Source: a virus
DNA length: 37,882 nt
Virus record (IMG/VR): IMGVR_UViG_3300030117_001138
Span: 1-37,882 of that record
Strand: one strand, 5' to 3'
The position numbers and the translations under genes were made by a program. The notes beneath the pieces were generated by a model. That model was not told the origin of the DNA, made no database searches, and saw nothing but the letters and a program-made list of their open reading frames with translations. Each line of letters opens with the position of its first letter. Positions within the stretch are counted from its first letter, which is position 1. Below, piece after piece: positions 628-37,882 of the stretch.

Positions 628-861
628 TTAATCTGTTATTAGTTTATCTATTTTAGCATCAAGTTTATCTATTTTATCTATTAATCGTTGAAACTCAACA
701 GTATGCTCACTTCTAGTTAGATATTCTCTAGCCACTTCTTCTCTTGTTCTATTAATCAAAATGTTCTGTCTTTGTAGTTCTGAAGCGTGAGTCTTTAATG
801 TATAAAAGATTGGTGCAAATACCAAACTAATTATTATGTTCCAAAACAACATTCCATCCAT
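628..861 (-). CDS. Small membrane-anchored coiled-coil protein
   Basis: A 77-residue protein with one N-terminal hydrophobic segment (residues about 4-22, MLFWNIIISLVFAPIFYTL) followed by a charged helix. The C-terminus carries a short heptad-like repeat (LIDKIDKLDAKIDKLITD). Such single-span plus coiled-coil proteins are common next to phage lysis genes and may be holin-related or spanin-like; this is inference from layout. It lies 2 nt downstream of the endolysin gene's start side (endolysin 864-1310) in one transcription unit. An internal Met at residue 4 is an alternative start. Confidence 0.65.
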   Translation of the reverse strand: MDGMLFWNIIISLVFAPIFYTLKTHASELQRQNILINRTREEVAREYLTRSEHTVEFQRLIDKIDKLDAKIDKLITD

Positions 862-863
862 GA

Positions 864-1310
864 TTAGCTCAGTTTATCCCACTCTTTTCCTTCAAACAAA
901 TTAGCTTCTGCTTCTCTGCGTTTAACTAAGCCACCTAAGATAACACCGCCAGCTTTGTTCCATCTTCTTATTTGTTCTGGAACTCCGTCATAGTTGCCTT
1001 CGTTCAACACCTTAAGTAACGTAGAGTTTTTAAGGTTTGTAGGGCCCAAGTTATACACCCAACATACCAAAGCATCAAACTGACATTGTTCTAGTGGCAC
1101 TTCTACAAGATCATTAATATAACCTTCATACTCAATCATTTCTTCTTGTAGCATATATTCAGCTTCGTCTTGATTAATTTTGTCGCCTTCTTTAACATCC
1201 TTTGTATGACCATAACCTATAGTCCAAACGTCTACAGAATCTTGATAGGCTTCTAAACGACAGCCTTCGTAAGACTTAATTAAAGATATACCTTCTTCAG
1301 ATATTTGCAT
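864..1310 (-). CDS. Endolysin, T4-type lysozyme (GH24)
   Basis: A 148-residue muramidase that cleaves the MurNAc-GlcNAc bond of peptidoglycan at the end of infection. The glycoside hydrolase 24 catalytic triad has the expected spacing: Glu15, Asp24 and Thr30 in the stretch SYEGCRLEAYQDS then VWTIGYGHT. Downstream motifs typical of the family follow (QCQFDALVCWVYNLG, then RRWNKAGG and LVKRREAE). There is no signal peptide or signal-anchor sequence, so release should depend on a holin, and a holin-like gene (1313-1789) lies directly upstream with 2 nt between them. Length is normal for the family. All catalytic residues are present. Confidence 0.95.
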   Translation of the reverse strand: MQISEEGISLIKSYEGCRLEAYQDSVDVWTIGYGHTKDVKEGDKINQDEAEYMLQEEMIEYEGYINDLVEVPLEQCQFDALVCWVYNLGPTNLKNSTLLKVLNEGNYDGVPEQIRRWNKAGGVILGGLVKRREAEANLFEGKEWDKLS

Positions 1311-1312
1311 TT

Positions 1313-1789
1313 TTACTTATCATCACCAGAGTGTGATGCGCCAAAGTAAAAACTAATAATAGCTGATGCTAAACCACCTAGATATCCGAGAACCAGGTTG
1401 ACCAAAGCCTCTGAGTTGGCTTCGGGGGGCTGCAAAGTTATGAGAAAGATATAACCTAAAAAACCACCTAATGTAGCAATACCTATAATTCTAGTAGTCC
1501 AATCTTTAGAAAAAGTTGATCTAGCGTTCTGTGTATCTTGTACTTCTAGTTTAAATACATCTACCTCTAGTTCTTTCATCTTAACCTCAAACTCAGCTTC
1601 AGCTTTTTTCAGCTCAAGCATTTGTTCAGGTGTAGCATTGTCTATAGCTTTTTGTATTTCTTTGGGTTCGTTCTTACAACCCAATACATCTGCAATCATG
1701 TTTGCAGCCATACCACCCATAGGCCCGCCTAATGCTGTGCCTAAGGTTGGTGCTACTGATCCAACTAAGTTTTTAAGTAGTGCTTTCAT
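1313..1789 (-). CDS. Holin, 3TM/GTA-type
   Basis: A 158-residue protein with an N-terminal Gly/Ala-rich hydrophobic stretch (residues about 8-37, containing GTALGGPMGGMAANMI), a long charged helix (about 50-90), then two strong C-terminal membrane segments (about 100-118 and 128-147) separated by a short polar loop. The DW-TTR junction before the first of these and the ASHSGDDK tail match the family of three-span phage and gene-transfer-agent holins as I remember it. It should form inner-membrane lesions that release the cytoplasmic endolysin encoded immediately downstream. Confidence 0.8.
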   Translation of the reverse strand: MKALLKNLVGSVAPTLGTALGGPMGGMAANMIADVLGCKNEPKEIQKAIDNATPEQMLELKKAEAEFEVKMKELEVDVFKLEVQDTQNARSTFSKDWTTRIIGIATLGGFLGYIFLITLQPPEANSEALVNLVLGYLGGLASAIISFYFGASHSGDDK

Positions 1790-1978: not shown

Positions 1979-3742
1979 TTATATTGTATAAACTTGTAAG
2001 GGCTTTTCTTTACCCTTTACTTGTAATGGTTCTAATAATTTTAACTCATAATCTGATTTTATGGCAGTATTGTAGCCAATTAATAAATCTACTCCAGCCT
2101 CTTTAGTACCACTTTCCAGTCTAGCCCCTGTATTTACTGCATCTCCTATAGCTGTGTAATCAAACCTTTGTTCACTACCCATGTTACCGATAACCGCATA
2201 TCCAGTATTAATGCCAATACCAATAGCTACAGGTGGTAAGTTTTTTTCTGCCATCTCTATGTTTAAATCTTCCATATTTTTCTGTATATCTAAAGCACAG
2301 TCTATAGCTTTATTTTCATGGAATTCTTGATTTAGAGGTGCATTAAATATAGCCATCATTGCATCGCCTATATATTTATCTACCATACCGCCATGTTTCT
2401 GAACTGCGGATTGTTGTGCAGTCAGAGCCTTATTCATAATGTAAGTTACTTCTTCGGGTTCAAGGGTTTCTGACATTGAGGTGAATCCCCTAACGTCAGT
2501 AAATAAAAAGGTAGCATATCGTTTTTCTCCTCCTAGCTTTAATAAACTAGGATTGTTTTGTAATTGTTTAACTTGTCTAGGATCAAGATAATGTTCAAAT
2601 TGTTTTTTAATTTGCTGTCTTAACTTGTATTGCTCTCTAAATCTAAGATAGAAGGCTGTAGATGCAGTTATAAACTCTGCAATCAAAGACCATGTTACGT
2701 CTATCAAAATACCTTGTTGTGCTGTCCAGAAGCCATATATGCCCGTAGCGGTCATTATTACTATTGCACTAGATACTCCTAAGGTTATACCTAAAACATT
2801 TAATACAGTCCATATAAGCACCACAGAAATAGCCAATATTAATAGTTCTACAGAAAGAGCATAATCAGGTATATATGGACTGTCTTGTATTAGTATAGAT
2901 TCTGCTAATGCTGCTTGTATTTTGTGTGGTTCTAGTAAACCAACTGGTGTGGATAACTGTGGCATAACACCGTTAGCTGTCACTCCTACAATTACAAATT
3001 TATCTGCTACATCCATTTCTTGTAATGTTGTGGAAGGTGTATTAACCCAACTAATCCACTTACGACCTAGTGAATCTACAGAAACTGGTGGTAATCCTCT
3101 AACCCTTATTTCTTCTAGTCCATTGTCATTTGTTTTAATTACATAAGTATCTGCTTGTGCCAATACTTTTAATATTTGTATGCCAAAAGCGGGTGTCCAA
3201 CCATCAGGTGTGCGCATCAATAATGGAAGTCTTCTTGTTAAACCATCTACATCTATAGGTGCAGATGATATGCCTTGATAGGCTTTTTGTTTAAGTATAT
3301 CTATGTTTTGTGTAGCTCCTTGCAACATAACACCACCCACATCATCACCAAGAATGACTGTTCCTGTGGTTTGCGGATATTGTTGATTGTCTGTTTCAAA
3401 CATAGCCAAAACACTTGGGTGTAAACTTAATGAATGAGCAAATACTTCGTCACCACCAAAACGATCTGGTTCGCTAAATGCTATAACATAGCCAACACCC
3501 ATAGCTCCACGTTCCAATAACTCTAAGTGTATTTCTGCTAATTGATCTCTAGGAAAAGGCCATCCACCTTCTCGTTGTACGTCTTCTTCTGTAATGTCTA
3601 ATGTTACAAATAGATTAGATGTAGGTTGTTCTTTTACCCAAGCATCAAATACTTTTAATTTAAGTATTTCTAGTGGTGTAAGTTGGTATATAAAAGGTAG
3701 GGTAAGTAATGCCAATAAACCTAATAACTGTAACTTCTTCAT
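1979..3742 (-). CDS. CHASE2-domain adenylate cyclase (class III), membrane receptor type
   Basis: A 587-residue transmembrane signalling enzyme predicted to make cAMP from ATP in response to an extracytoplasmic cue. In order: an N-terminal membrane segment (about 4-20); a periplasmic CHASE2 sensor (about 25-285, hallmark GGWPFPR near 59-65 and a DRFGGDEVFA segment); three membrane helices (about 292-365); a linker helix; and a class III cyclase domain (about 407-587). Catalytic residues are intact: metal-binding Asp416 (FTDVRGFT) and Asp460 (YIGDAMMAIF), purine-specifying Lys456 and Asp528 (adenine type), and transition-state Asn537 and Arg541 (AIGDAVNTGARLE). Its start overlaps the FecR gene's stop (ATGA, 4 nt). 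FecR-CHASE2 cyclase pairs are known on bacterial chromosomes; in a phage late operon this is very unusual. The domain call is firm; the role in infection is inference. Confidence 0.95.
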   Translation of the reverse strand: MKKLQLLGLLALLTLPFIYQLTPLEILKLKVFDAWVKEQPTSNLFVTLDITEEDVQREGGWPFPRDQLAEIHLELLERGAMGVGYVIAFSEPDRFGGDEVFAHSLSLHPSVLAMFETDNQQYPQTTGTVILGDDVGGVMLQGATQNIDILKQKAYQGISSAPIDVDGLTRRLPLLMRTPDGWTPAFGIQILKVLAQADTYVIKTNDNGLEEIRVRGLPPVSVDSLGRKWISWVNTPSTTLQEMDVADKFVIVGVTANGVMPQLSTPVGLLEPHKIQAALAESILIQDSPYIPDYALSVELLILAISVVLIWTVLNVLGITLGVSSAIVIMTATGIYGFWTAQQGILIDVTWSLIAEFITASTAFYLRFREQYKLRQQIKKQFEHYLDPRQVKQLQNNPSLLKLGGEKRYATFLFTDVRGFTSMSETLEPEEVTYIMNKALTAQQSAVQKHGGMVDKYIGDAMMAIFNAPLNQEFHENKAIDCALDIQKNMEDLNIEMAEKNLPPVAIGIGINTGYAVIGNMGSEQRFDYTAIGDAVNTGARLESGTKEAGVDLLIGYNTAIKSDYELKLLEPLQVKGKEKPLQVYTI

Positions 3743-4854
3743 CCCGATCCTTGTTTAATTGTTATTGTTGTTGACGAACCACCATTAATTTTAACTGTAT
3801 TTGTTACACCGTCTTGTATCAGTATAACTGTATAACTGCCTGAACCGTCTAAATTTAACTTTGCACTTTGACTGACCGATCTGGTTAAACTAATGTTTTG
3901 ACCAGATACTATTGTTGTTATTTGTGTGTCTTTATCTTGTCCTATTTCTGTACCAACAATACGTATACCTACACCACCTTGTTTTAATTGGTCTTCTTCT
4001 TTTGATATGGCGAGTGCATCTATCACATTCAATAAATCTTCAAGAAAGTTTACATCTAAATAGTTTATGTCTAGTTCTGTAAACTCTAAATCTTTTTCTG
4101 CATCTAAGAAATCTTCGTTTAGATAATCTATATCTAAGTCGTTAAAATCTAAATAATCAGCTGATGCTTGTGTTTGTGTTTCTTCTATTTGTTGTTCTAC
4201 TTCTTGCGGTGGATTAACAATCAACATATTGTCTATAAGGTCTAGTGATATATCTAAAGTTACAGGCTTAGTTGGATTGTTTTCAAACACAGATACAGTA
4301 GTAGCTTGGTAGGGTTTATTTAAAGTCACACTACCCATAGCTGTAGCTACTATTATTTCACCACTAGATATACCGTTTTTATCTGGTAACAGTATGACGA
4401 GTGATCTGCCTAGTTCGTCCACAGTACAAGTAAAATCTGTACCACGAATAGCAATATTCGCTGTCGGTGTGCGTATAGCTATATTGCTTTTGTTATTAAA
4501 TTTACCAGTAATAAAACGTGCAGTACCACTAGCAAACTTAAGTGCCATCTTAGATTTAGATGGGTCAGGGTCATAGATATATTCATCTATAACTAACTTA
4601 GAATGTTCGGTTAGTTTTACTGTTGAACTGTCTTCAAATGTTATAGCGACTCTGCCCGCTTCTGTGCGGACATCATCCATTTGTTGTATGTTGAATTTAA
4701 GTTCAGCTCCGTAGGGTTTATCTCTTAGAACTTGTGCGTTGCCTCTAAGTTCAGATATAGAACCTATTTCAGCAAACGAATGAAGTAGTTGCGTCTGACT
4801 GAGTAACACAGACAGTACCGCTAGAGCCATCAGATGTAATTTTAAGCCAGTCAT
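3739..4854 (-). CDS. Secreted FecR-domain protein with acidic repeats
   Basis: A 371-residue exported protein: a signal peptide (about 1-28, MALAVLSVLLSQTQLLHSFA), then a FecR domain (about 30-200) with the typical pattern GSISELRGNAQVLR, VRTEAGRVAITFEDSS, FASGTARFITGKF and TPTANIAIRGTDFT. An acidic linker follows (about 235-285) with a repeated L-D-[IF]-[DN]-Y-L-x-x-[DN]-F-L pattern, then a beta-rich C-terminal domain ending TTITIKQGSG. The N-terminal cytoplasmic helix of classical FecR sigma regulators is absent, so it is probably a secreted ligand or surface protein rather than an anti-sigma factor. It sits between the curlin-like gene (86 nt overlap) and the CHASE2 cyclase (4 nt overlap), so a sensor-partner role for the cyclase is plausible but inferred. 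Met9 is an alternative start that still leaves a good signal peptide. Confidence 0.85.
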   Translation of the reverse strand: MTGLKLHLMALAVLSVLLSQTQLLHSFAEIGSISELRGNAQVLRDKPYGAELKFNIQQMDDVRTEAGRVAITFEDSSTVKLTEHSKLVIDEYIYDPDPSKSKMALKFASGTARFITGKFNNKSNIAIRTPTANIAIRGTDFTCTVDELGRSLVILLPDKNGISSGEIIVATAMGSVTLNKPYQATTVSVFENNPTKPVTLDISLDLIDNMLIVNPPQEVEQQIEETQTQASADYLDFNDLDIDYLNEDFLDAEKDLEFTELDINYLDVNFLEDLLNVIDALAISKEEDQLKQGGVGIRIVGTEIGQDKDTQITTIVSGQNISLTRSVSQSAKLNLDGSGSYTVILIQDGVTNTVKINGGSSTTITIKQGSG

Positions 4855-5479
4855 TATCAGATGTAGATTCCTGATCTATGTTAAATGTTCTTGATCCCCC
4901 TGTGTGCGTAAGGTGAAAGTAGCCTCCAGCGTAACCATCTCCATCATAAGTAACAACATTATCATCACCGTCAATATTCATATAGTTAGTAGCACCATCA
5001 ACATCTATAGCTGCGGTAATGTTGTTGGTATCACCTTGAATAGTCCAGTCTAAATCTAAGTTTGCTGCTAGTGCAGTCATGGCATGGTTTAATGTCATGG
5101 TGTTTGTATTACCTGTAACTTGCACGTTTACGTTAGAACCGTCAGCTCCAGTAGCGTTAGTTTCATCAGTAGACATATTAAATGTATTAGTATCACCTAT
5201 AAATGAAAAGTAACCTGTGTAGTTATCCGCCCAGATGTCTCCTAAGAATTTATTTGTAGAGCCTTTCTGCAAGATGTCTAGAGTCATAGTTCCGCCATCA
5301 ATATCTAATGCAGTCATAGAACCAGCTGTTGCGTCAGCACCACCGATAATGTTACCACTACCGCCCACTTGTTCTATATCTAAGTTAGATGTAGCACCTG
5401 ATTGATCTATAAATATCTCATTGTCCGCTGCATAAATATTAAGCGATATAAGTAACAGTAATAGCTTTAGTTTATTCAT
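4769..5479 (-). CDS. Secreted curlin-like repeat protein (candidate curli fibre subunit)
   Basis: A 236-residue protein with a signal peptide (about 1-17, cleavage near IYA-ADNEIF) followed by repeating beta-strand/turn units. Several units fit the curlin pattern of alternating hydrophobics with Gln and Asn at fixed spacing: IFIDQSGATSNLDIEQ, LDILQKGSTNKFLG, VNVQVTGNTNTMTL, WTIQGDTNNITA and FNIDQESTSDND. It is rich in Gly, Asn, Asp, Thr and Ser, as expected of a functional amyloid. Two Cys flank the last repeat (VCVTQSDATTSFVC). The gene directly follows csgG (8 nt overlap), the usual partner that exports such subunits. The repeats are more degenerate than E. coli CsgA, so it could also be another beta-solenoid surface protein. 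No separate CsgB nucleator is visible. Confidence 0.72.
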   Translation of the reverse strand: MNKLKLLLLLISLNIYAADNEIFIDQSGATSNLDIEQVGGSGNIIGGADATAGSMTALDIDGGTMTLDILQKGSTNKFLGDIWADNYTGYFSFIGDTNTFNMSTDETNATGADGSNVNVQVTGNTNTMTLNHAMTALAANLDLDWTIQGDTNNITAAIDVDGATNYMNIDGDDNVVTYDGDGYAGGYFHLTHTGGSRTFNIDQESTSDNDWLKITSDGSSGTVCVTQSDATTSFVC

Positions 5480-6272
5480 TTAGTTTCCAATATCCAGATT
5501 CTTGACCTTCGTTGATTGTTTGCAATACCGCAGTTTCAATCGCTGCTTGTAATGCAATGTTTATAGACTCATTTTCCACTATACCGTTTTCAATTTCAAC
5601 CAATTCTGTGTTGTTTGCATAAAATCTGAACACATCTGAAGAGATAGATGCGCTGAGAACAGTCTTTGTAACCAACACCTCTAATAATATTTTTCCTGTA
5701 CTAACTGAAACTGTGCGTAATGATATGGTAACTGAGTCTTGTCTGTATTCTTTTGACATACCAATACCTAAGTATCTAGCTCCCGCACCACCTGACTTTA
5801 TATTGGTTTCATAACCTATAACACCACCTTCCATTAATAAACCAGCAAACAATAAAGGTTTGAGTTTTTGTTTTTCTTCAAAACTTTCTCTAGTTGTTCG
5901 TATGATTTGTCTTTCTTTAGTTAGGTTATCTAGTCCTGTACGTTCTACCACGTCAAAGAAGTTAGAGTGTTTAAGTGCTCTAATTAAGTATGCGTCTGGT
6001 GATTGTGTAATAGCGGTACTAAAACTAGCGTACTGACTATTACTTCTGCGTTGGCCTGTATTGTCTTTAAAAGAGTTTGGATAAACTGCAACAACAGGTT
6101 TGCGTACAGGTGATTTAATCTCTTTTAATTGTGTTATTAACAAACCCACTTCTGCGGGTTCTATGTTTCTTATAGGGGGTACTCCGTTATCTAAGGGAGG
6201 TATTATTAGAGAGCAACTAGAAAGAAAAAGAACCGAGAGGTACAGTAATTTCTGTTGTATTGCCTTCTTCAT
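5472..6272 (-). CDS. csgG: CsgG-family curli secretion pore, outer-membrane lipoprotein
   Basis: A 266-residue homologue of the nonameric outer-membrane channel that exports curli subunits. The lipoprotein signal is clear: hydrophobic run then LSSC with lipidated Cys20. The body follows E. coli CsgG closely: VVAVYPNSFKDNTGQ, FSTAITQSPDAYLIRALKHS, FFDVVERTGLDNLTKERQII, GYETNIKSGGAGARYLGIG, ISLRTVSVSTGKILLEV and a C-terminal AIETAVLQTINEGQESGYWKL. The length is normal, so the pore should be complete. In the constriction loop the Phe is kept (SFST), while the E. coli Asn position appears to be Ser and the Tyr is displaced by about two residues. The gene overlaps csgF upstream by 56 nt and the curlin-like gene downstream. 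There is no csgE chaperone or csgD regulator nearby. Confidence 0.95.
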   Translation of the reverse strand: MKKAIQQKLLYLSVLFLSSCSLIIPPLDNGVPPIRNIEPAEVGLLITQLKEIKSPVRKPVVAVYPNSFKDNTGQRRSNSQYASFSTAITQSPDAYLIRALKHSNFFDVVERTGLDNLTKERQIIRTTRESFEEKQKLKPLLFAGLLMEGGVIGYETNIKSGGAGARYLGIGMSKEYRQDSVTISLRTVSVSTGKILLEVLVTKTVLSASISSDVFRFYANNTELVEIENGIVENESINIALQAAIETAVLQTINEGQESGYWKLNE

Positions 6273-6678
6273 CTGTGATTATAAGTGTTACCTTGTCGTC
6301 TTCTACTCTGTATTCTATGGTGTTGCCTTCTAGTTCTAAAATACCAAAATCAGATGCAGTCTCACCAAATAAATTATCAACCAACTGTCTGCTCAGTTGT
6401 GCGTATATTCTACTCTCTAGGTTGCGTATAAACCTAGCTAATGTTGTGTTATCTGCTTCTCTTTCTAGGTCTTCTACATAGGCTTTGATTTCTTCTCGTA
6501 TCGCTTCTTTTCTGTTGAACTCTTGATTCTCTATAGTTAGATAATGACTTGAGGTATTAATGCCTGAGAAACTGGGGTTCTTAAACTTGTGAGTCATTTC
6601 ATCAGCTTGCAATAATTGAAACAATAAAATAGCAAAAATAAAATTTATAAATATTAGTTTCATTTCTGTATTGCCCAT
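6217..6678 (-). CDS. csgF: CsgF-like curli assembly factor
   Basis: A secreted 153-residue protein (148 if translation starts at Met6, 6663, which gives the cleaner signal peptide MKLIFINFIFAILLFQLLQA). The mature N-terminus DEMTHKFKNPSFSG matches the CsgF hallmark (T-x-x-F-x-NP-x-F-x-G), the segment known from E. coli structures to plug into the CsgG channel. A middle helical region (about 50-105) and a C-terminal beta part (GNTIEYRVEDDKVTLIITDE, then TEITVPLGSFSF) correspond to the family's neck and head. It lies directly upstream of csgG with overlapping ends, the usual csgF-csgG order, which strengthens the call. It would couple subunit export to fibre nucleation at the cell surface. Confidence 0.9.
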   Translation of the reverse strand: MGNTEMKLIFINFIFAILLFQLLQADEMTHKFKNPSFSGINTSSHYLTIENQEFNRKEAIREEIKAYVEDLEREADNTTLARFIRNLESRIYAQLSRQLVDNLFGETASDFGILELEGNTIEYRVEDDKVTLIITDEEGNTTEITVPLGSFSF

Positions 6679-7029
6679 CTAATCTTTTCTCTGATCTTCT
6701 CTGTCTGCTTTAGCTATTTTATTCATATCTATTAAGTTACTTTGCCCTAATAAAATTTTAATCATTGTGTCTTGACGTATGATTTCGTTGTCTAGCGATC
6801 TAACTCTATCTATAAGGGCAACCAAGATACCATGCTGTGAGTCTAGCTTAGTACCTAGTCTTTCTTCCATGTGAGAGATTAACTCAGCTTGTTTATCATC
6901 AAGTGTATCAAGCTTAGTTTCCATACCATCAATGATACGGTTGATAAGTTTCCATATAAAGAAACCTAGACCGCCCGCAGCCGCTATGGGGAAGCCAACT
7001 TCGTTAATCAGTTGGACTGCCTGTTCCAT
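6679..7029 (-). CDS. Membrane-anchored coiled-coil protein (holin-like)
   Basis: A 116-residue protein: a hydrophobic N-terminal segment (about 10-32, GFPIAAAGGLGFFIWKLINR) followed by long amphipathic helices (about 35-100) with regular leucines and a charged tail. The topology resembles small phage holin-like proteins of the XhlA/UviB type, but I cannot assign a family. Its stop abuts the csgF start, so it heads the curli cassette. It may be a second holin, an anchor for lysis timing, or part of the cassette. Confidence 0.7.
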   Translation of the reverse strand: MEQAVQLINEVGFPIAAAGGLGFFIWKLINRIIDGMETKLDTLDDKQAELISHMEERLGTKLDSQHGILVALIDRVRSLDNEIIRQDTMIKILLGQSNLIDMNKIAKADREDQRKD

Positions 7030-7323: not shown

Positions 7324-7608
7324 TTAACACTTCCACCTTCTGCGTGCTTGTCTTATTCTAGAGTTAGGATCGTTTCTAGTCTTCGCAGAACTACGTTTTA
7401 GTTGTCCGAGTGATCTAGCACAATAAGACTTTCTTCTATTGGCTGCTTTGCTACCAGGTTTTACTTTACCCGTTACAGCAGTTTGTAAATTAGAACCAGG
7501 ATTAGCTCTATTATAACGCTCTACCCCTTTTTTAGTCATGCCAGCACCAGACTTGGTAGGTCTGTAATTACCGCCTTTACCTGTGGTTCTTCGTATTGCT
7601 TTAGCCAT
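7324..7608 (-). CDS. Conserved-type basic phage protein, 94 aa
   Basis: A Lys/Arg-rich protein with recognisable segments GAGMTKKGVERYNRANPGS, LQTAVTGKVKPGSKAANRR, KSYCARSLGQ and a C-terminal DPNSRIRQARRRWKC. This arrangement matches a widespread uncharacterised phage/metagenome family (I believe the DUF6321 type, from memory). Two Cys in the second half could bind metal. It lies between the portal-adjacent 70-aa gene (shares one nt) and the membrane peptide. Its function is unknown; high charge and head-gene context suggest a minor virion or DNA-associated protein. Confidence 0.8.
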   Translation of the reverse strand: MAKAIRRTTGKGGNYRPTKSGAGMTKKGVERYNRANPGSNLQTAVTGKVKPGSKAANRRKSYCARSLGQLKRSSAKTRNDPNSRIRQARRRWKC

Positions 7609-7820
7609 TAGTGCATTGTTTTTTCTTCACAAAGAATCACTTCTGAATCTTCGTCAATCTCGCCACCAAACATTAAAATCATCATCTCAAAAGCTTGTTG
7701 TTCGTCTTTGGCAAATACTTCCTTACCTACGTAAACCATGTCTCCTTCTAAGACTTCAATGTCATAGATTTTGTGCGGGGACATTGTTGTTAAAGAGTCC
7801 TTGAGCTTGTTGTTTTGCAT
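7608..7820 (-). CDS. Small acidic hypothetical protein next to portal
   Basis: A 70-residue acidic protein: IYDIEVLEGDMVYVGKEVFA then a helical DEQQAFEMMILMFGG and acidic end. The longest frame starts at 7820, inside the portal gene; Met13 at 7784 is an alternative, and either start overlaps the portal end (7762). Its stop overlaps the start of the 94-aa gene. I do not recognise the family. Confidence 0.65.
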   Translation of the reverse strand: MQNNKLKDSLTTMSPHKIYDIEVLEGDMVYVGKEVFAKDEQQAFEMMILMFGGEIDEDSEVILCEEKTMH

Positions 7821-9924
7821 TTTGTCTTATCGTTTCTCTATCTCGTTCCATGATAGAGTTTATCTCTGCAATATTAACTTGTGCTCCGTATTTTGCCAAC
7901 AACTCAGCTGCCTTTAATCGTATTTGTGCTTCTTCAATGTCACGACTTCTATCGTCATCCATAATAATCTTCATACGATCTGTTTCCGCATCAATCATAG
8001 CCTTCTGAGCACTTACTTGTGCTTTCATAGCCTCTGCTTGCGCTAACATTTCAGCTGCATCTGGCTTCGGTGGCTCTTGTGGAGCTGGTGGCATTGGCGG
8101 AACTTCGGTGTTTATGAACGATTCTGGGTCTTTAAATCCAGCCATTTCAATCATTCTGCTCAAAGTATTGGAATATTGCTGTAAAGACACAAGAGGATTT
8201 TCAGGGCCTAATTGAGCCAGTATTTGCTCTTGTTTTGTGGATAATTGCGCCAATATAGCAAACTTTTCTTCGTCTGAAGTCTTGCTAATAGCTACATTTA
8301 CGATGATATCCTTGTTGGTGTCCCAATATCTAGGGTCAACTGGTACGAATTTACCGTTCAATCTAAACATATCTTGAGCACTTTGGTGTTTAATTACTAG
8401 ATTGTTGACCAATCCGAAGAGGTCTTTCATACCACCTTCGGCAAAATGCCTACAAATTAGCTCTATTCTTCCTTGTGCTCCTGACATGGTAGCGGACACC
8501 GCTGCCTTGGTGCTTGATTGAAGAGCATCTGCGTTCAGACCAGCTGATGCTTTAGACACCCCTGTACGATTCTCTTTAGACTCATCGAGATAGCCCAGTA
8601 CAGGAAACGCTTCCTTGCCGACAAACGGTACGCTAAAAGGTTGTACCATACCAGGAGCACGCACTCTAATCGGCTGTCCAATATCAGTATTCAATACATC
8701 GTCTATATTGACCTGACCCTCTACGACAGCCATGCGAGGGAAAATAGAATGTCCTAATGAGTCTAGCGTGTCTCGCATAATCTGAGACTTTGCTGCTTGA
8801 ATCGGTTTTAAGTAGTCTGCTGGACATGAACCAATCGCTGTATGTGGTTCAGGATCAGGGCAGAACATGACAATCGGTAAATCATCCCACGCTTCTACGT
8901 TCAAAACGTGCAAGCCATCGCCAATCGTGCATACTCGTATTCTTTCATCTATACCGTCATCATCAAAATCGTAGAATAAATAGTGTTCTATGTATAAAAC
9001 GTCTTTACCACCCGCATCGTTCCTGTCGGGATATACCATGTTGTCAAAAGGATTACGAGCTTGTACTTCTTCGTAAGCTTCTGGGTCAACTGCACTACCG
9101 CCATAGCCAGCGTGTTGTTCAATCTCTTCAATGTCGTAACCCATAGCAACTAAATCAGATACAGATTTAATCATACGATGTGCAATATAAGATGCGCTGT
9201 TTAAATCTTTAGCGTGCCTAGATATTAATATTTCTTCTGGGGGTACAGACTCTAAACATACTTGGCTTCTTTCTTTAACTCTGCGTATGGTTAGATCGTA
9301 ACTGACGGGTAGTTCTTGTGTAACCTCTTCCTGTGTAAGTGGGTCAAGTGTTGTAATCGTTTCTTTTGTTATCTCTTCTTCGATAATCTCTACGTCAGGG
9401 TCAAGCACTAGGGCTTGGTAAGACTGGGGGTCTAGGTTGGAATACTCGTGCGTAGTTGCATCGAGTGAGTCATCCCAAAACACTTTAACAAACCCTGTCT
9501 TTCTAACGAGTGCATCTTTGAACGCATCGTATAACACTTGGAAGCCATTGTTCTTTTGTTGGATAACGTGGTTAATATAATCCGTTTGCTGTTCGGCAAG
9601 TGCAATGTCTTCAGGCCCTTTAGGTATAAACTCAACCACCTTTTTCGTACCAAAAAAAGTACGCATGATGGAAGGCAACATAAAGAGTACGGTGTCTCTA
9701 ACGTCAGTAGAGATAAACTCAGACTGTAATGTGCTTGTCGATTCTGGCTCATTGCCAAGATAGTATTCGGTGGACTCTGCTCTCTCTTCTCCAACTTGGT
9801 AGATAAAATCACGAGCATCATCCATCTCTGATTTGATGACTCCCGTTAGATTGATTAAGTCCGTTTCTTCATTCAGTTGCATTTCGATTTCTGCTTCGAT
9901 CTGCTTTGTGCTTTTCTTTGCCAT
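7762..9924 (-). CDS. Portal protein (P22-like podovirus type)
   Basis: A 720-residue dodecameric vertex protein through which DNA is packaged and ejected. It is directly downstream of the large terminase (3 nt gap). The N-terminal region (ESTEYYLGNEP, DTVLFMLPSIMRTF), the YDAFKDALVRKTGFVKVFWDD segment and the late coiled-coil tail (about 600-700, Ala/Gln/Glu-rich) are typical of long P22-type portals. The C-terminal helices would form the barrel. No truncation is seen. Translation probably starts at ATG 9924. Confidence 0.93.
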   Translation of the reverse strand: MAKKSTKQIEAEIEMQLNEETDLINLTGVIKSEMDDARDFIYQVGEERAESTEYYLGNEPESTSTLQSEFISTDVRDTVLFMLPSIMRTFFGTKKVVEFIPKGPEDIALAEQQTDYINHVIQQKNNGFQVLYDAFKDALVRKTGFVKVFWDDSLDATTHEYSNLDPQSYQALVLDPDVEIIEEEITKETITTLDPLTQEEVTQELPVSYDLTIRRVKERSQVCLESVPPEEILISRHAKDLNSASYIAHRMIKSVSDLVAMGYDIEEIEQHAGYGGSAVDPEAYEEVQARNPFDNMVYPDRNDAGGKDVLYIEHYLFYDFDDDGIDERIRVCTIGDGLHVLNVEAWDDLPIVMFCPDPEPHTAIGSCPADYLKPIQAAKSQIMRDTLDSLGHSIFPRMAVVEGQVNIDDVLNTDIGQPIRVRAPGMVQPFSVPFVGKEAFPVLGYLDESKENRTGVSKASAGLNADALQSSTKAAVSATMSGAQGRIELICRHFAEGGMKDLFGLVNNLVIKHQSAQDMFRLNGKFVPVDPRYWDTNKDIIVNVAISKTSDEEKFAILAQLSTKQEQILAQLGPENPLVSLQQYSNTLSRMIEMAGFKDPESFINTEVPPMPPAPQEPPKPDAAEMLAQAEAMKAQVSAQKAMIDAETDRMKIIMDDDRSRDIEEAQIRLKAAELLAKYGAQVNIAEINSIMERDRETIRQNAKQQAQGLFNNNVPAQNL

Positions 9925-30246: not shown

Positions 30247-32433
30247 TTAACTTTCTAATGCGGCAACTCTAGTAGTCAACGCATCTATTTTATTATCAGC
30301 TTCCTGCAAAGCCTTAACTAGAATTGGTATAAGTTCTCCTTCTGATAAACCTTGTGTGCTGTCATCCATTTCCATCCAAAGATTAAAAGATTTTGAATCT
30401 AAACTATTACTATCTAATAAAGCTTTTACTTCTTGTGCTATAAAACCATGTTTTAACTCTGCTGTTTCTGTGTCTTGATTTACACGCTTATTTGAACCTT
30501 CTTTGTAATATTCTAAAGAATTGTCTACATCTTTTTCTTTTTTCCAGTTATAAGTAACTGGTCTTAAAGCATTTACAAAATTTAATCCTAAAGTGTGGTC
30601 TGCAATGTTTTCTTTTAACCTTAAGTCTGATGTACCAGTCCATGATGAACCACCTGGTTGTATATATGTTCTATCAGCACCATACCCCAGTGTTATATAT
30701 ATACTTGAAGAAGAAGCAGAAGATACACTTCCCCCGATAGTTATCGAACCATCAATATTTTGTGAAGTAGTTTGATAACCTATAGCTACTTGTCGGTCTG
30801 CTGTAGTACAACCTTGTGCTCCGTTCTGCCCCACCACTACATTACCATAGCCTGTTGTTATAGATGCACCCGCACTATCTCCTACTCCTACGTGTAAGTA
30901 TCCTGTAGTAGCACCACCCAAAGCACCTTGACCGACTGCAACATTTTGATCGCCAGTTGTATTTATTCCTAAAGCATTTACACCCACAACTGTGTTGTAA
31001 CTACCTGTAGTAAGTGCATCTGCTGCACTCTTACCAACTGCTGTATTTTGTGTTCCTGTAGTGTTTGCTACTAAAGCTTCAAAACCAACTGCCGTATTAT
31101 TAAGTGCTGTAGTGTTTGCACCTAATGCTCCAACTCCAACAGCAGTATTAACAGCACCAGTAGTATTTGCATCTAACGCATTTAGACCAACTGCTGTATT
31201 ACTGTAGCCTGTAGTGTTAGAGCCTAAAGATTGATGTCCAACAGAAGTATTGTTAGCACCTGTTGTAGAATTTGATAAAGCAGCATACCCTATAGCTATA
31301 TTATAATCTGCTGTTGTGTTTGCGTCTAAAGCGTAAGGGCCTATAGCAACATTAGCTGTACCAGTAGTGTTTGTTACTAAACTATGATAGCCAACAGCAG
31401 TATTATCACCCGCTGTTGTATTATTATTTAAAGCAAAAGTACCTATAGCAACATTTGTTCCGCCTGTAGTACATTCCGTAAGAGCATCTTTACCTATAGC
31501 AGTATTTCTGATACCTGTCGTACAAGCATCTAGTGCTGCTTGCCCGATCGCTACGTTTGAGTGTCCTGTGGTATTAGAACCCATTGCTGCAACACCTACC
31601 GCAGTATTATTGTCTCCTGTAGTATTCGCAGTCATTGAAGATGTACCAACTGCTGTGTTATTAGCACCTGTAGTGTTAGCTAGTAAAGCAGATGCACCAA
31701 CTGCTGAATTTTGAGATGCTGTAGTATTGTTTTGTAAAGCACTTGCTCCAACAGCAACATTACTCCCACCTGTAGTGCTTTCATATAAAGAAGAATACCC
31801 TAAAGCTGTATTGTAGTTTCCTGTTGTATGATCAAGAAGTGCATCTTTACCAACTGCTGTGTTAGCTGATCCAGTAGTGTTGGCTGTTAAGGCATCTGCA
31901 CCGATAGCTACATTATTTGAACCTGTAGTATTGAAAACCAAAGCTCTATAGCCTGACGCAGTATTGTCTATTCCTGTTGTATTTGAATATAAAGCACTAG
32001 AGCCTACAGCAGTATTATACTCACCTGTAGTTAATGAATATCCCGCAGCCCAACCTATAACTGCGTTATGATCACCAGTAGTTAAAGCTGCAAAGACATC
32101 GACACCTAAACCAACATTATAGTTAGCAGCATCTATAGTTCCTGTGGTTGTGTCTCCAATCATTATGGAGCTTGTGCCAAAAGTCTTACTGCTTATACCA
32201 TTAACTGTAGTTGCTGTTAGCGTTGTAAACGATCCAGCAGCAGCAGTAGTGCCACCAATAACAGAACTGTCAATAACAGCTCCGTCTAAGTTGATTGCTA
32301 CTGATGTACCAGTAGAACTAAATATTGCGTCAACTGAATCCAGGTCAGCATTAATTTTTGTTCCCCAAGTATCTGTCGATGCTCCGACTTCTGGTTTAGT
32401 TAAGTTTAAATTAGTAGTAAATGTATCTGCCAT
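30247..32433 (-). CDS. Tail fibre with 17-residue beta repeats and S74 chaperone
   Basis: A 728-residue adhesin-like tail fibre. N-terminal attachment domain (about 1-118, [20 protein letters not shown]), then 25 uninterrupted 17-residue repeats (120-544, consensus GxxNTAVGxxALxxNTT) like YadA-head beta-solenoids, a short linker, and a C-terminal endosialidase-type intramolecular chaperone (about 602-728: [15 protein letters not shown] with the Ser602/Lys607 dyad, [19 protein letters not shown]). A coiled coil ends the protein ([17 protein letters not shown]). It should be trimeric and bind the host surface; the chaperone may be cleaved off after folding. Confidence 0.92.
30802..32076 (-). 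repeat. 25 tandem 51-bp units in the fibre gene
   Basis: The segment codes residues 120-544 as exact 17-residue units without indels. Conserved positions are N4, [TV]5, A6, V/I7, G8, A/S11, L12 and TT at 16-17. Third codon positions and variable sites differ between units, so the array is old or under diversifying selection rather than freshly amplified. Confidence 0.9.
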
Positions 32434-36549: not shown

Positions 36550-36813
36550 CTAACCGATGTTACGGACTTTATTTATATTTGCTCTAGTGAGTTTTCCTTT
36601 CTCTGCAATGATACGCAGATGCTTTTCTACTTCAGGTATTAGTAATATAGACCTGTGTAAACTTTCTCTTGTAGAAATATCATCTGGGTTTTTTGAGTTT
36701 AACCAAGCTTGCATATACTCATCTTTTAAAGATTGCATAGCTTCTTTAAAAACATCAGACTCAAGTATTCTTTCAGCTTCAGCTGCTTTTACGACTTCTT
36801 TATGTGTAGGCAT
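36550..36813 (-). CDS. Small helical protein, 87 aa
   Basis: An 87-residue, almost all-helical charged protein (HKEVVKAAEAERILESDVFK, LKDEYMQAWLNSKNPDDIST, LLIPEVEKHLRIIAEKGKLT). The pattern of residues about 10-75 is like small phage proteins found before scaffold genes. It shares one nt with the upstream Gly/Pro-rich gene. Function unknown. Confidence 0.7.
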   Translation of the reverse strand: MPTHKEVVKAAEAERILESDVFKEAMQSLKDEYMQAWLNSKNPDDISTRESLHRSILLIPEVEKHLRIIAEKGKLTRANINKVRNIG

Positions 36814-37882
36814 TAGAGTGTTCCTAGTAGTGCTCTTGGACTTCCTTGTCTTATGGGTGAAACAATGTTATCAATATTTAGAACTGGATTATTAGGAGTC
36901 ATTCCTAAATTAACCATAGGTTGTGGCGTTACAGTAGTATCGATTACAGGTAATATCGGTATTTCTTTTGTCTTCGGTATTTGAGGTAATACAAAAGGTA
37001 TTTCAGGAATTGTTGTTGAAGCCATGTCTTCAATCATCGGTAAGCCTAAATTTATTGGCACGTCTACTATGGGTGTAGGTGCTTCTAACACAGGAGGTGT
37101 TACAGGTATAGAAGGCATAACAGGTTGTGTTTCTGGAATAATCTCAGGCAATACTGGAGCTAATATTGGTTGTGTTTCTGGAATAATCTCAGGCAATACT
37201 GGAGCTAATATTGGTTGTGGTGCTGGTGTAGGTAAGTTTTCTATAACTTGCTCTACATCAATATCTTCTAACAACTTATCTACATCTACATCAACAGGCA
37301 ATGGACTTCCCATAACCGATGGTGCTGGTATTTGTCTTATAGATTCAGGATCAAAAGTAACCCCAGCTGGCATTGGTGTTCCTTCGCCCATTGGCAAACC
37401 CAAGTTTGCTCCCGTCATTCCAACAGAAGGGTCTTGTACGCTTGGGAAGAAAGCTGGTGATTCTGTTACTGGTTGGCTAATAATAGGTCTTGGTTGAAAA
37501 GGTGTAGCTCCTTCTGCAATATAACCCATAGGTTGATCTGGAGAGAAACTCATACCAGGTGCTACTACTTGTTCAAAAGGCATACCGCCCGCTATTTGTT
37601 GTGCGTAAGCTTGACCGCTTAGCAAGCCACCCATGCCACCACCAGTACCGCCAGTTCCTACATCATTACCTGGTATGCCATGACCTGCAGCAGCACCGCC
37701 GCCACCACCTCCAGCATATGCAACTGGTGAACCTGTGATGTGAGTTGTTGCACCTGCACCACCATCACCACCATTACCTGAACCTGAAGATGAAGCACCT
37801 GCTGCCGTAGCACCACCGCCACCACCTGAACCTGGTTGGTTGGAACCATATTGTCCTTGACCACCTGGGTTACCTTGAGGTG
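36813..37882 (-). CDS. Glycine- and proline-rich structural protein, 5' end beyond the right edge
   Basis: The minus-strand frame is open from the right edge (37882) to the stop at 36813, about 356 codons; an internal ATG at 37634 is probably not the true start, because the upstream 82 codons continue as a coherent Gly-rich domain (PQGNPGGQGQYGSNQPGSGG..., TTHITGSPVAYAGGGGGG). That motif is typical of glycine-rich C-terminal domains of phage fibre proteins. The rest is disordered and Pro-rich, with two identical 15-residue repeats (PILAPVLPEIIPETQ). A 68-codon frame at 37658-37864 in another register is a shadow. Function unknown; a virion or host-contact protein is likely. Confidence 0.7.
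   Translation of the reverse strand, partial: PQGNPGGQGQYGSNQPGSGGGGGATAAGASSSGSGNGGDGGAGATTHITGSPVAYAGGGGGGAAAGHGIPGNDVGTGGTGGGMGGLLSGQAYAQQIAGGMPFEQVVAPGMSFSPDQPMGYIAEGATPFQPRPIISQPVTESPAFFPSVQDPSVGMTGANLGLPMGEGTPMPAGVTFDPESIRQIPAPSVMGSPLPVDVDVDKLLEDIDVEQVIENLPTPAPQPILAPVLPEIIPETQPILAPVLPEIIPETQPVMPSIPVTPPVLEAPTPIVDVPINLGLPMIEDMASTTIPEIPFVLPQIPKTKEIPILPVIDTTVTPQPMVNLGMTPNNPVLNIDNIVSPIRQGSPRALLGTL
37123..37212. repeat. Two perfect 45-bp tandem repeats
   Basis: Units at 37123-37167 and 37168-37212 are identical and code the same 15 residues of the Pro-rich protein; a third copy breaks off after 7 bases. Perfect identity points to a recent duplication. Confidence 0.85.

Follow-up and report, generated by a model that had tools for sequence, protein, structure and literature searches.

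Curli-type export genes among the lysis genes of a marine tailed phage, and their association with a FecR-domain protein and a CHASE2-adenylate cyclase

Why would a tailed phage carry genes for curli secretion, and what would it export with them? This question is raised by a virus contig of 37,882 bases from IMG/VR, analyzed here over its whole length (hereafter the window), which encodes an SU10-type portal, an SU10-type major capsid protein, a tyrosine integrase, a lysozyme and an S74 tail protein. The integrase (PF00589, 8.9e-15) suggests a temperate phage. Its terminase is at most 51% identical to that of any deposited phage, and the pelagiphage HTVC106P has relatives for 7 of the 31 proteins tested. 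The record contains no tRNA or RNA genes, and these give no clue to the host.

Several other features of the window deserve mention. A gene for a 94-aa basic protein (7324-7608) shows 78% DNA identity to gp24 of the pelagiphage HTVC100P and is the sole DNA match to a deposited phage in the first 25 kb; despite this match, the tail genes of HTVC100P form a different, T7-like set. A 728-aa tail protein (30247-32433) carries many TTG-containing repeats like those of trimeric adhesins and a C-terminal S74 chaperone. A glycine-rich and proline-rich protein (36813-37880) has a reading frame that leaves the end of the record.

The genes of interest lie on the minus strand, as do all cassette, lysis and portal genes located below. 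They encode, head to tail, CsgF, CsgG, a predicted beta-solenoid protein, a FecR-domain protein and a CHASE2-adenylate cyclase. They overlap or abut and are located between the gene of the portal (7762..9924; PF23899 SU10_portal, 1.6e-189), a late gene upstream of the cassette, and that of the lysozyme. A previous sequence-only reading had recognized three adjacent, overlapping genes at 4769-6678 in this order and this place, which our analysis bears out. However, the span was drawn too short: fecR overlaps the curlin-like gene, the cyclase gene overlaps fecR, and both belong to the cassette.

The same reading had mentioned reports of such genes in marine phages, rightly so: three papers of 2020-2022 (PMC7029224, PMC9004378, PMC9599517) already describe the cassette, which is found in HTVC008M, Melnitz and HTVC023P-type podophages. 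On the other hand, its suggestion that joining a fibre subunit and signaling genes to these may be new is not supported. PMC9599517 gives the arrangement CsgF-CsgG-CsgA/B-FecR-(CsgA/B)-adenylate cyclase for HTVC023P-type podophages and pelagimyophages, and the annotated records of HTVC008M and Melnitz contain the cassette genes in the same order. The presence of the cassette in phages is already published, and the member described here adds another phage lineage. What is new, as far as the available parts of the literature on phage cassettes extend, are the cassette-free junctions and the rule connecting FecR-domain type with the cyclase.

The export genes and a degenerate curlin

The exported CsgF homologue (6217..6678) begins immediately after the stop of the upstream gene, p116. 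It matches PF10614 (2.7e-17) over residues 13-147 with 63.6 bits for a cut-off of 25.8, as well as phrog_35372 (3.5e-44), and displays the motif F-K-N-P-S-F-S-G close to its N-terminal start. CsgG, the outer-membrane lipoprotein pore (5472..6272), exceeds the cut-off of PF03783 (4.8e-53, residues 53-264). With phmmer it matches the solved E. coli CsgG (PDB 3x2r and others) at 4.2e-48, and its lipobox ends in C20, a residue invariant in an alignment reaching the myophage homologues. The profile searches thus uphold the earlier identification of CsgF and of a full-length CsgG lipoprotein pore. CsgE (PF10627), said to be absent, was indeed not found in the record under conditions where the E. coli control was detected. 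This absence is not diagnostic against a cassette of the phage type, because CsgE is also missing from the cassettes that PMC9599517 describes in phages and alphaproteobacteria. The order given in that paper, csgF-csgG-curlin-fecR-(curlin)-AC, is the one found in the window.

The third protein (4769..5479), the putative substrate of the pore, had been described as an exported protein with curlin-type Q/N repeats. It possesses a signal peptide-like N-terminal start, and tblastn connects it to a protein of HTVC008M annotated as "curlin-associated" (1e-6) and to Melnitz (8e-5). The repeat part of the description stands less well. The window copy matches no Pfam (Curlin_rpt included), PHROG or NCBIfam profile above the cut-off and contains a single QxGxxN motif (shuffles, P 0.084), whereas the HTVC008M and Melnitz copies contain two each (P of about 0.001). 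Curlin_rpt matches are observed in 4 of the 16 aligned family members (best, 1.1e-4), and the Melnitz copy reaches 8.6e-6. We propose that the window protein is a curlin degenerate by descent, because of its tblastn links to HTVC008M and Melnitz and the Curlin_rpt matches of its homologues; fibre formation is putative.

AlphaFold2 predicts a long-stranded beta-solenoid (mean pLDDT 83.2, pTM 0.82). With this model Foldseek gave no fold match at E <= 0.001; VIA-align returned beta-helix and solenoid proteins such as SufB/D (Z 16.8, rmsd 3.9, 199 aligned residues), and also a beta-helical antifreeze protein. These resemblances of the model would reflect a common solenoid shape only.

Some particularities of its relatives can be added. 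A C-terminal motif, C-x-x-Q-x-D-x(4-6)-C, occurs in 122 of 135 podophage curlin-like proteins, in which the pair of cysteines could perhaps form a disulphide cap; the HTVC008M and Melnitz copies are devoid of it. In one locus (L126, 4560-6101), csgG and the curlin-like gene share a single frame of 513 aa with no intervening stop, a possible fusion, either natural or made by the assembly. In HTVC008M, the second curlin gene (L083, 9558-10883) encodes Curlin_rpt repeats together with a PA14 domain, possibly the portion of the fibre that binds glycans.

An accessory block within the lysis module

Is the cassette a genuine part of phage genomes? A scan of IMG/VR with CsgG, a search for the cassette in other phage contigs that the earlier reading had called for, yielded 231 stretches encoding confirmed relatives, of which 80 loci were examined. 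Of those with enough sequence, nearly all preserve the order p116-csgF-csgG-curlin-fecR-(AC), and the substrate gene is retained in nearly all of the 80 cassettes. Five contigs (L003, L004, L009, L010 and L011) carry the terminase and the portal at 96-99% identity with the cassette alongside. Near-identical flanks together with the cassette in several contigs rule out a chimeric assembly, in agreement with the claim that the phage, rather than a host neighbour, carries these genes. Bacterial csgG loci from Rhizobium, Azospirillum and Afipia contain csgG, with csgF in several of them, and no homologue of fecR, the cyclase or p116 was found near csgG in these loci. The nearer matches, contigs from metagenome-assembled genomes (L152-L158 and L174) named Maricaulis, Neomarinimicrobiota, Pelagibacter, Rhodobacteraceae and Flavobacteriaceae, contain a cassette of the phage type and appear to be phage contigs that binning has placed in bacterial genomes.

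On both sides, the cassette is bordered by genes of the lysis module. Upstream, p116 (6679..7029) encodes a one-TM coiled-coil protein of 116 aa matching phrog_4898 (holin, 3.1e-4) and phrog_18771 (1.5e-14). The downstream border is the gene of a 158-aa protein (1313..1789), holin-like by its position and hydrophobicity (phrog_1544, function unassigned), and then come the phage lysozyme, or endolysin (864..1310; PF00959, 1.7e-47), and a 77-aa membrane protein, possibly spanin-like (628..861; phrog_462 "lipoprotein", 3.1e-5). Between the cyclase and the 158-aa gene (1790-1978) lie two tiny basic ORFs starting with MPRGKGTYGSKVGRPPKRK and MSKKKATQEDKRKQ.

p116 accompanies the cassette in 63 of the 68 loci with room for it. 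In five contigs, p116 is followed after a gap of 37-133 bp by the 158-aa gene and the lysozyme, and no CsgG was found in these five records. Because p116 is there joined directly to the 158-aa gene, the cassette is an accessory block within a lysis module able to exist without it. These contigs also rule out p116 as a cassette-specific gene; we assign it, with its weak holin-like matches, to the lysis module. PMC9599517 states that a histidine kinase gene always precedes csgF. No HATPase_c domain, the ATPase domain of kinases, was detected in our record, p116 included, in conditions where all 14 controls were found, and the gene just upstream of csgF here belongs to the lysis module and has no kinase domain.

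FecR-domain types and the CHASE2-adenylate cyclase

The FecR-domain protein (3739..4854; PF04773, 7.7e-13) consists of a signal-peptide-like start, the FecR domain (aa 60-151), an acidic linker and a C-terminal tail ending in QxGxxN and xIxIxQ motifs, which are found in 105 and 117 of 118 homologues, respectively. We considered the tail as a proven curlin repeat and rejected this assignment, since an HMM of the tail finds no bacterial curlin; the likeness would be one of motifs only. The predicted structure of the full protein was of low confidence (pLDDT 45) and was set aside. The next gene (1979..3742) encodes a class III adenylate cyclase with a CHASE2 domain (PF05226, 5.2e-29; PF00211, 4.8e-20). 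In class III cyclases, the residues corresponding to D416, D460, K456, N537 and R541 are the metal, base and transition-state residues. All five are present here and are invariant, or nearly so, in 60 sequences. An exported FecR-domain protein thus adjoins a CHASE2 enzyme, the arrangement of a FecR-CHASE2 pair.

The cyclase is optional. Of the distinct FecR proteins, 83 have both ends complete and no less than 380 bp of sequence beyond the gene; 59 of them come with the cyclase and 24 without it, and a search for a cyclase elsewhere in 16 cyclase-free records found none (positive control, 6/6). Over aa 31-205, the FecR domain occurs in distinct types, and in the 83 proteins these correspond with no exception to the presence or absence of the cyclase. 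In the first 47 loci, identity over aa 61-90 is 0.48 between types and 0.97-0.98 within them. On the tree of the FecR domain, cyclase status changes once (support 100/99, and 100% of bootstrap trees). The tree of the FecR tail requires eight changes; supported branches force at least five of these, and the AU test rejects a single cyclase-free clade (p 2e-6). The CsgG tree needs 13 changes, of which at least 11 are forced, barely better than shuffled labels, and the curlin tree needs seven, both being quick trees; the whole comparison is one of related sequences from fragmentary records.

Could the FecR domain and the cyclase simply travel as one linked block, with no functional coupling? Their coding regions are near each other, and cassettes often recombine. 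Yet the coding region of the tail separates that of the domain from the cyclase gene, and linkage alone predicts that the tail should track cyclase status no less closely than the domain does. Contrary to this prediction, the tail follows it worse: it has been exchanged at least five times relative to cyclase status, while domain and status never mismatch in 83 distinct proteins. We therefore hold mere linkage to be possible and on the doubtful side. One change on the domain tree against eight on the tail tree would point to a functional tie, and the pattern supports the view that the cyclase depends on FecR of one type.

We did not see any finer co-evolution of FecR and cyclase inside the cyclase-bearing cassettes, where divergence of the FecR domain tracks that of CsgG (r 0.95) more than that of the cyclase (r 0.53). 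Over the distance matrices, the divergence of the curlin-like protein runs in parallel with that of CsgF and CsgG (r 0.90-0.95), and that of the cyclase does not (r 0.44-0.61). The FecR protein is probably a periplasmic partner of CHASE2. FecR-CHASE2 neighbours in Campylobacterota (PMC9239204) and Burkholderia (PMC5192318) point the same way.

Possible roles and comparison with known systems

Observed directly are the genes with their order and homology, the wide distribution of the cassette, and phages that have its flanking lysis genes alone. Altogether, we consider it reasonably probable that the window contains a horizontally spread type VIII cassette, residing in the phage's lysis module and joined by an optional FecR-CHASE2 signaling unit. 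The core step would be the export of the putative solenoid substrate through CsgFG onto the surface of the infected cell. This would explain the core genes most economically, because the substrate is retained alongside CsgF and CsgG and all three diverge in parallel. The periplasmic FecR-domain protein and the CHASE2 cyclase would constitute a second, optional unit, in which FecR would provide the CHASE2 sensor with its input from the periplasm and the cyclase would convert a signal from the envelope or from export into cAMP; the presence of the cyclase goes with the type of FecR domain and not with that of the pore or fibre protein. A more tentative, though plausible, extension is that the FecR domain is a dedicated partner of CHASE2 and the tail, with its curlin-like motifs, couples it to the pore or fibre, so that fibre export (or the state of the envelope) would be read as cAMP; FecR types lacking this function would be those found where the cyclase is missing.

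Some points count against this export reading. Simple linkage may account for the parallel divergence of the curlin-like gene with csgF and csgG, the window's putative substrate offers one canonical motif and neither a Curlin_rpt nor a Foldseek fold match, and no clumping was seen in Melnitz cultures (PMC9004378). What the surface protein would do has drawn several proposals: PMC7029224 suggests aggregation of siblings, PMC9599517 suggests exclusion or uptake, and PMC9004378 the timing of lysis. Rather than aggregating cells, an exported coat could bring superinfection exclusion or receptor masking, as PMC9599517 proposes. This would be consistent with surface export; we find it unlikely, a late-gene position being late for exclusion unless the genes are expressed in a lysogen.

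The proposal made for Melnitz (PMC9004378), that the phage has turned the CsgG pore to another use, depolarising or permeabilising the envelope and timing lysis, fits a cassette lying between two lysis-module genes and close to the lysozyme. It is weakened by the phage's own lysozyme and holin-like genes and by phages having the same module and no cassette; moreover, an outer-membrane pore alone leaves CsgF, a conserved exported substrate, FecR and the cyclase unexplained, and we regard it as improbable. Very improbable, in our opinion, is that CsgG, ungated for want of CsgE, admits larger nutrients or siderophores to the periplasm of a streamlined host, with FecR as an iron-uptake regulator. 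The missing CsgE, the name of FecR and proposals in PMC7029224 and PMC9599517 speak for it. However, the FecR protein has a signal-peptide-like start and no apparent cytoplasmic anti-sigma part, no sigma-factor or receptor gene was seen beside fecR, and the substrate gene persists in nearly all of the cassettes examined. It is not necessary to take the FecR gene for a regulator of iron uptake.

The curli export genes form a large accessory block in ocean phages, with csgF, csgG, the solenoid gene and fecR as core and the cyclase as option. The tie between FecR-domain type and cyclase designates a concrete, testable pair of partners and, FecR-CHASE2 neighbours being found in several bacterial groups, the phages could be used as an exchange experiment made by nature.

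The E. coli system, csgBAC-csgDEFG, has the CsgG pore and CsgF in common with the window cassette, in which CsgE was not found and FecR and the cyclase are added. E. coli CsgA comprises five repeats, against one canonical repeat motif in the window substrate. In Campylobacterota and Burkholderia (PMC9239204, PMC5192318), a FecR-domain envelope protein stands beside a CHASE2 sensor enzyme, as here; in the available parts of these papers, curli export genes are not described with these clusters, and the CHASE2 protein of Burkholderia is a histidine kinase (PMC5192318) instead of an adenylate cyclase. Two myophages, the pelagimyophage HTVC008M (NC_020484) and the methylophage Melnitz (MZ577097), possess homologues of all five genes in the same order (PMC7029224, PMC9004378), with proteins about 31-47% identical to those of the window and, between fecR and the cyclase gene, a second curlin-repeat gene that the window cassette lacks. 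The window phage represents another lineage than the HTVC023P-type pelagipodophages of PMC9599517, because the latter are podophages of about 58.8 kb with PolA, while the former measures 37.9 kb with an SU10-type portal and capsid and an integrase. Its cassette contains one curlin gene only and is preceded by a gene without a kinase domain, and yet shares with theirs the same order csgF-csgG-csgA/B-fecR-adenylate cyclase.
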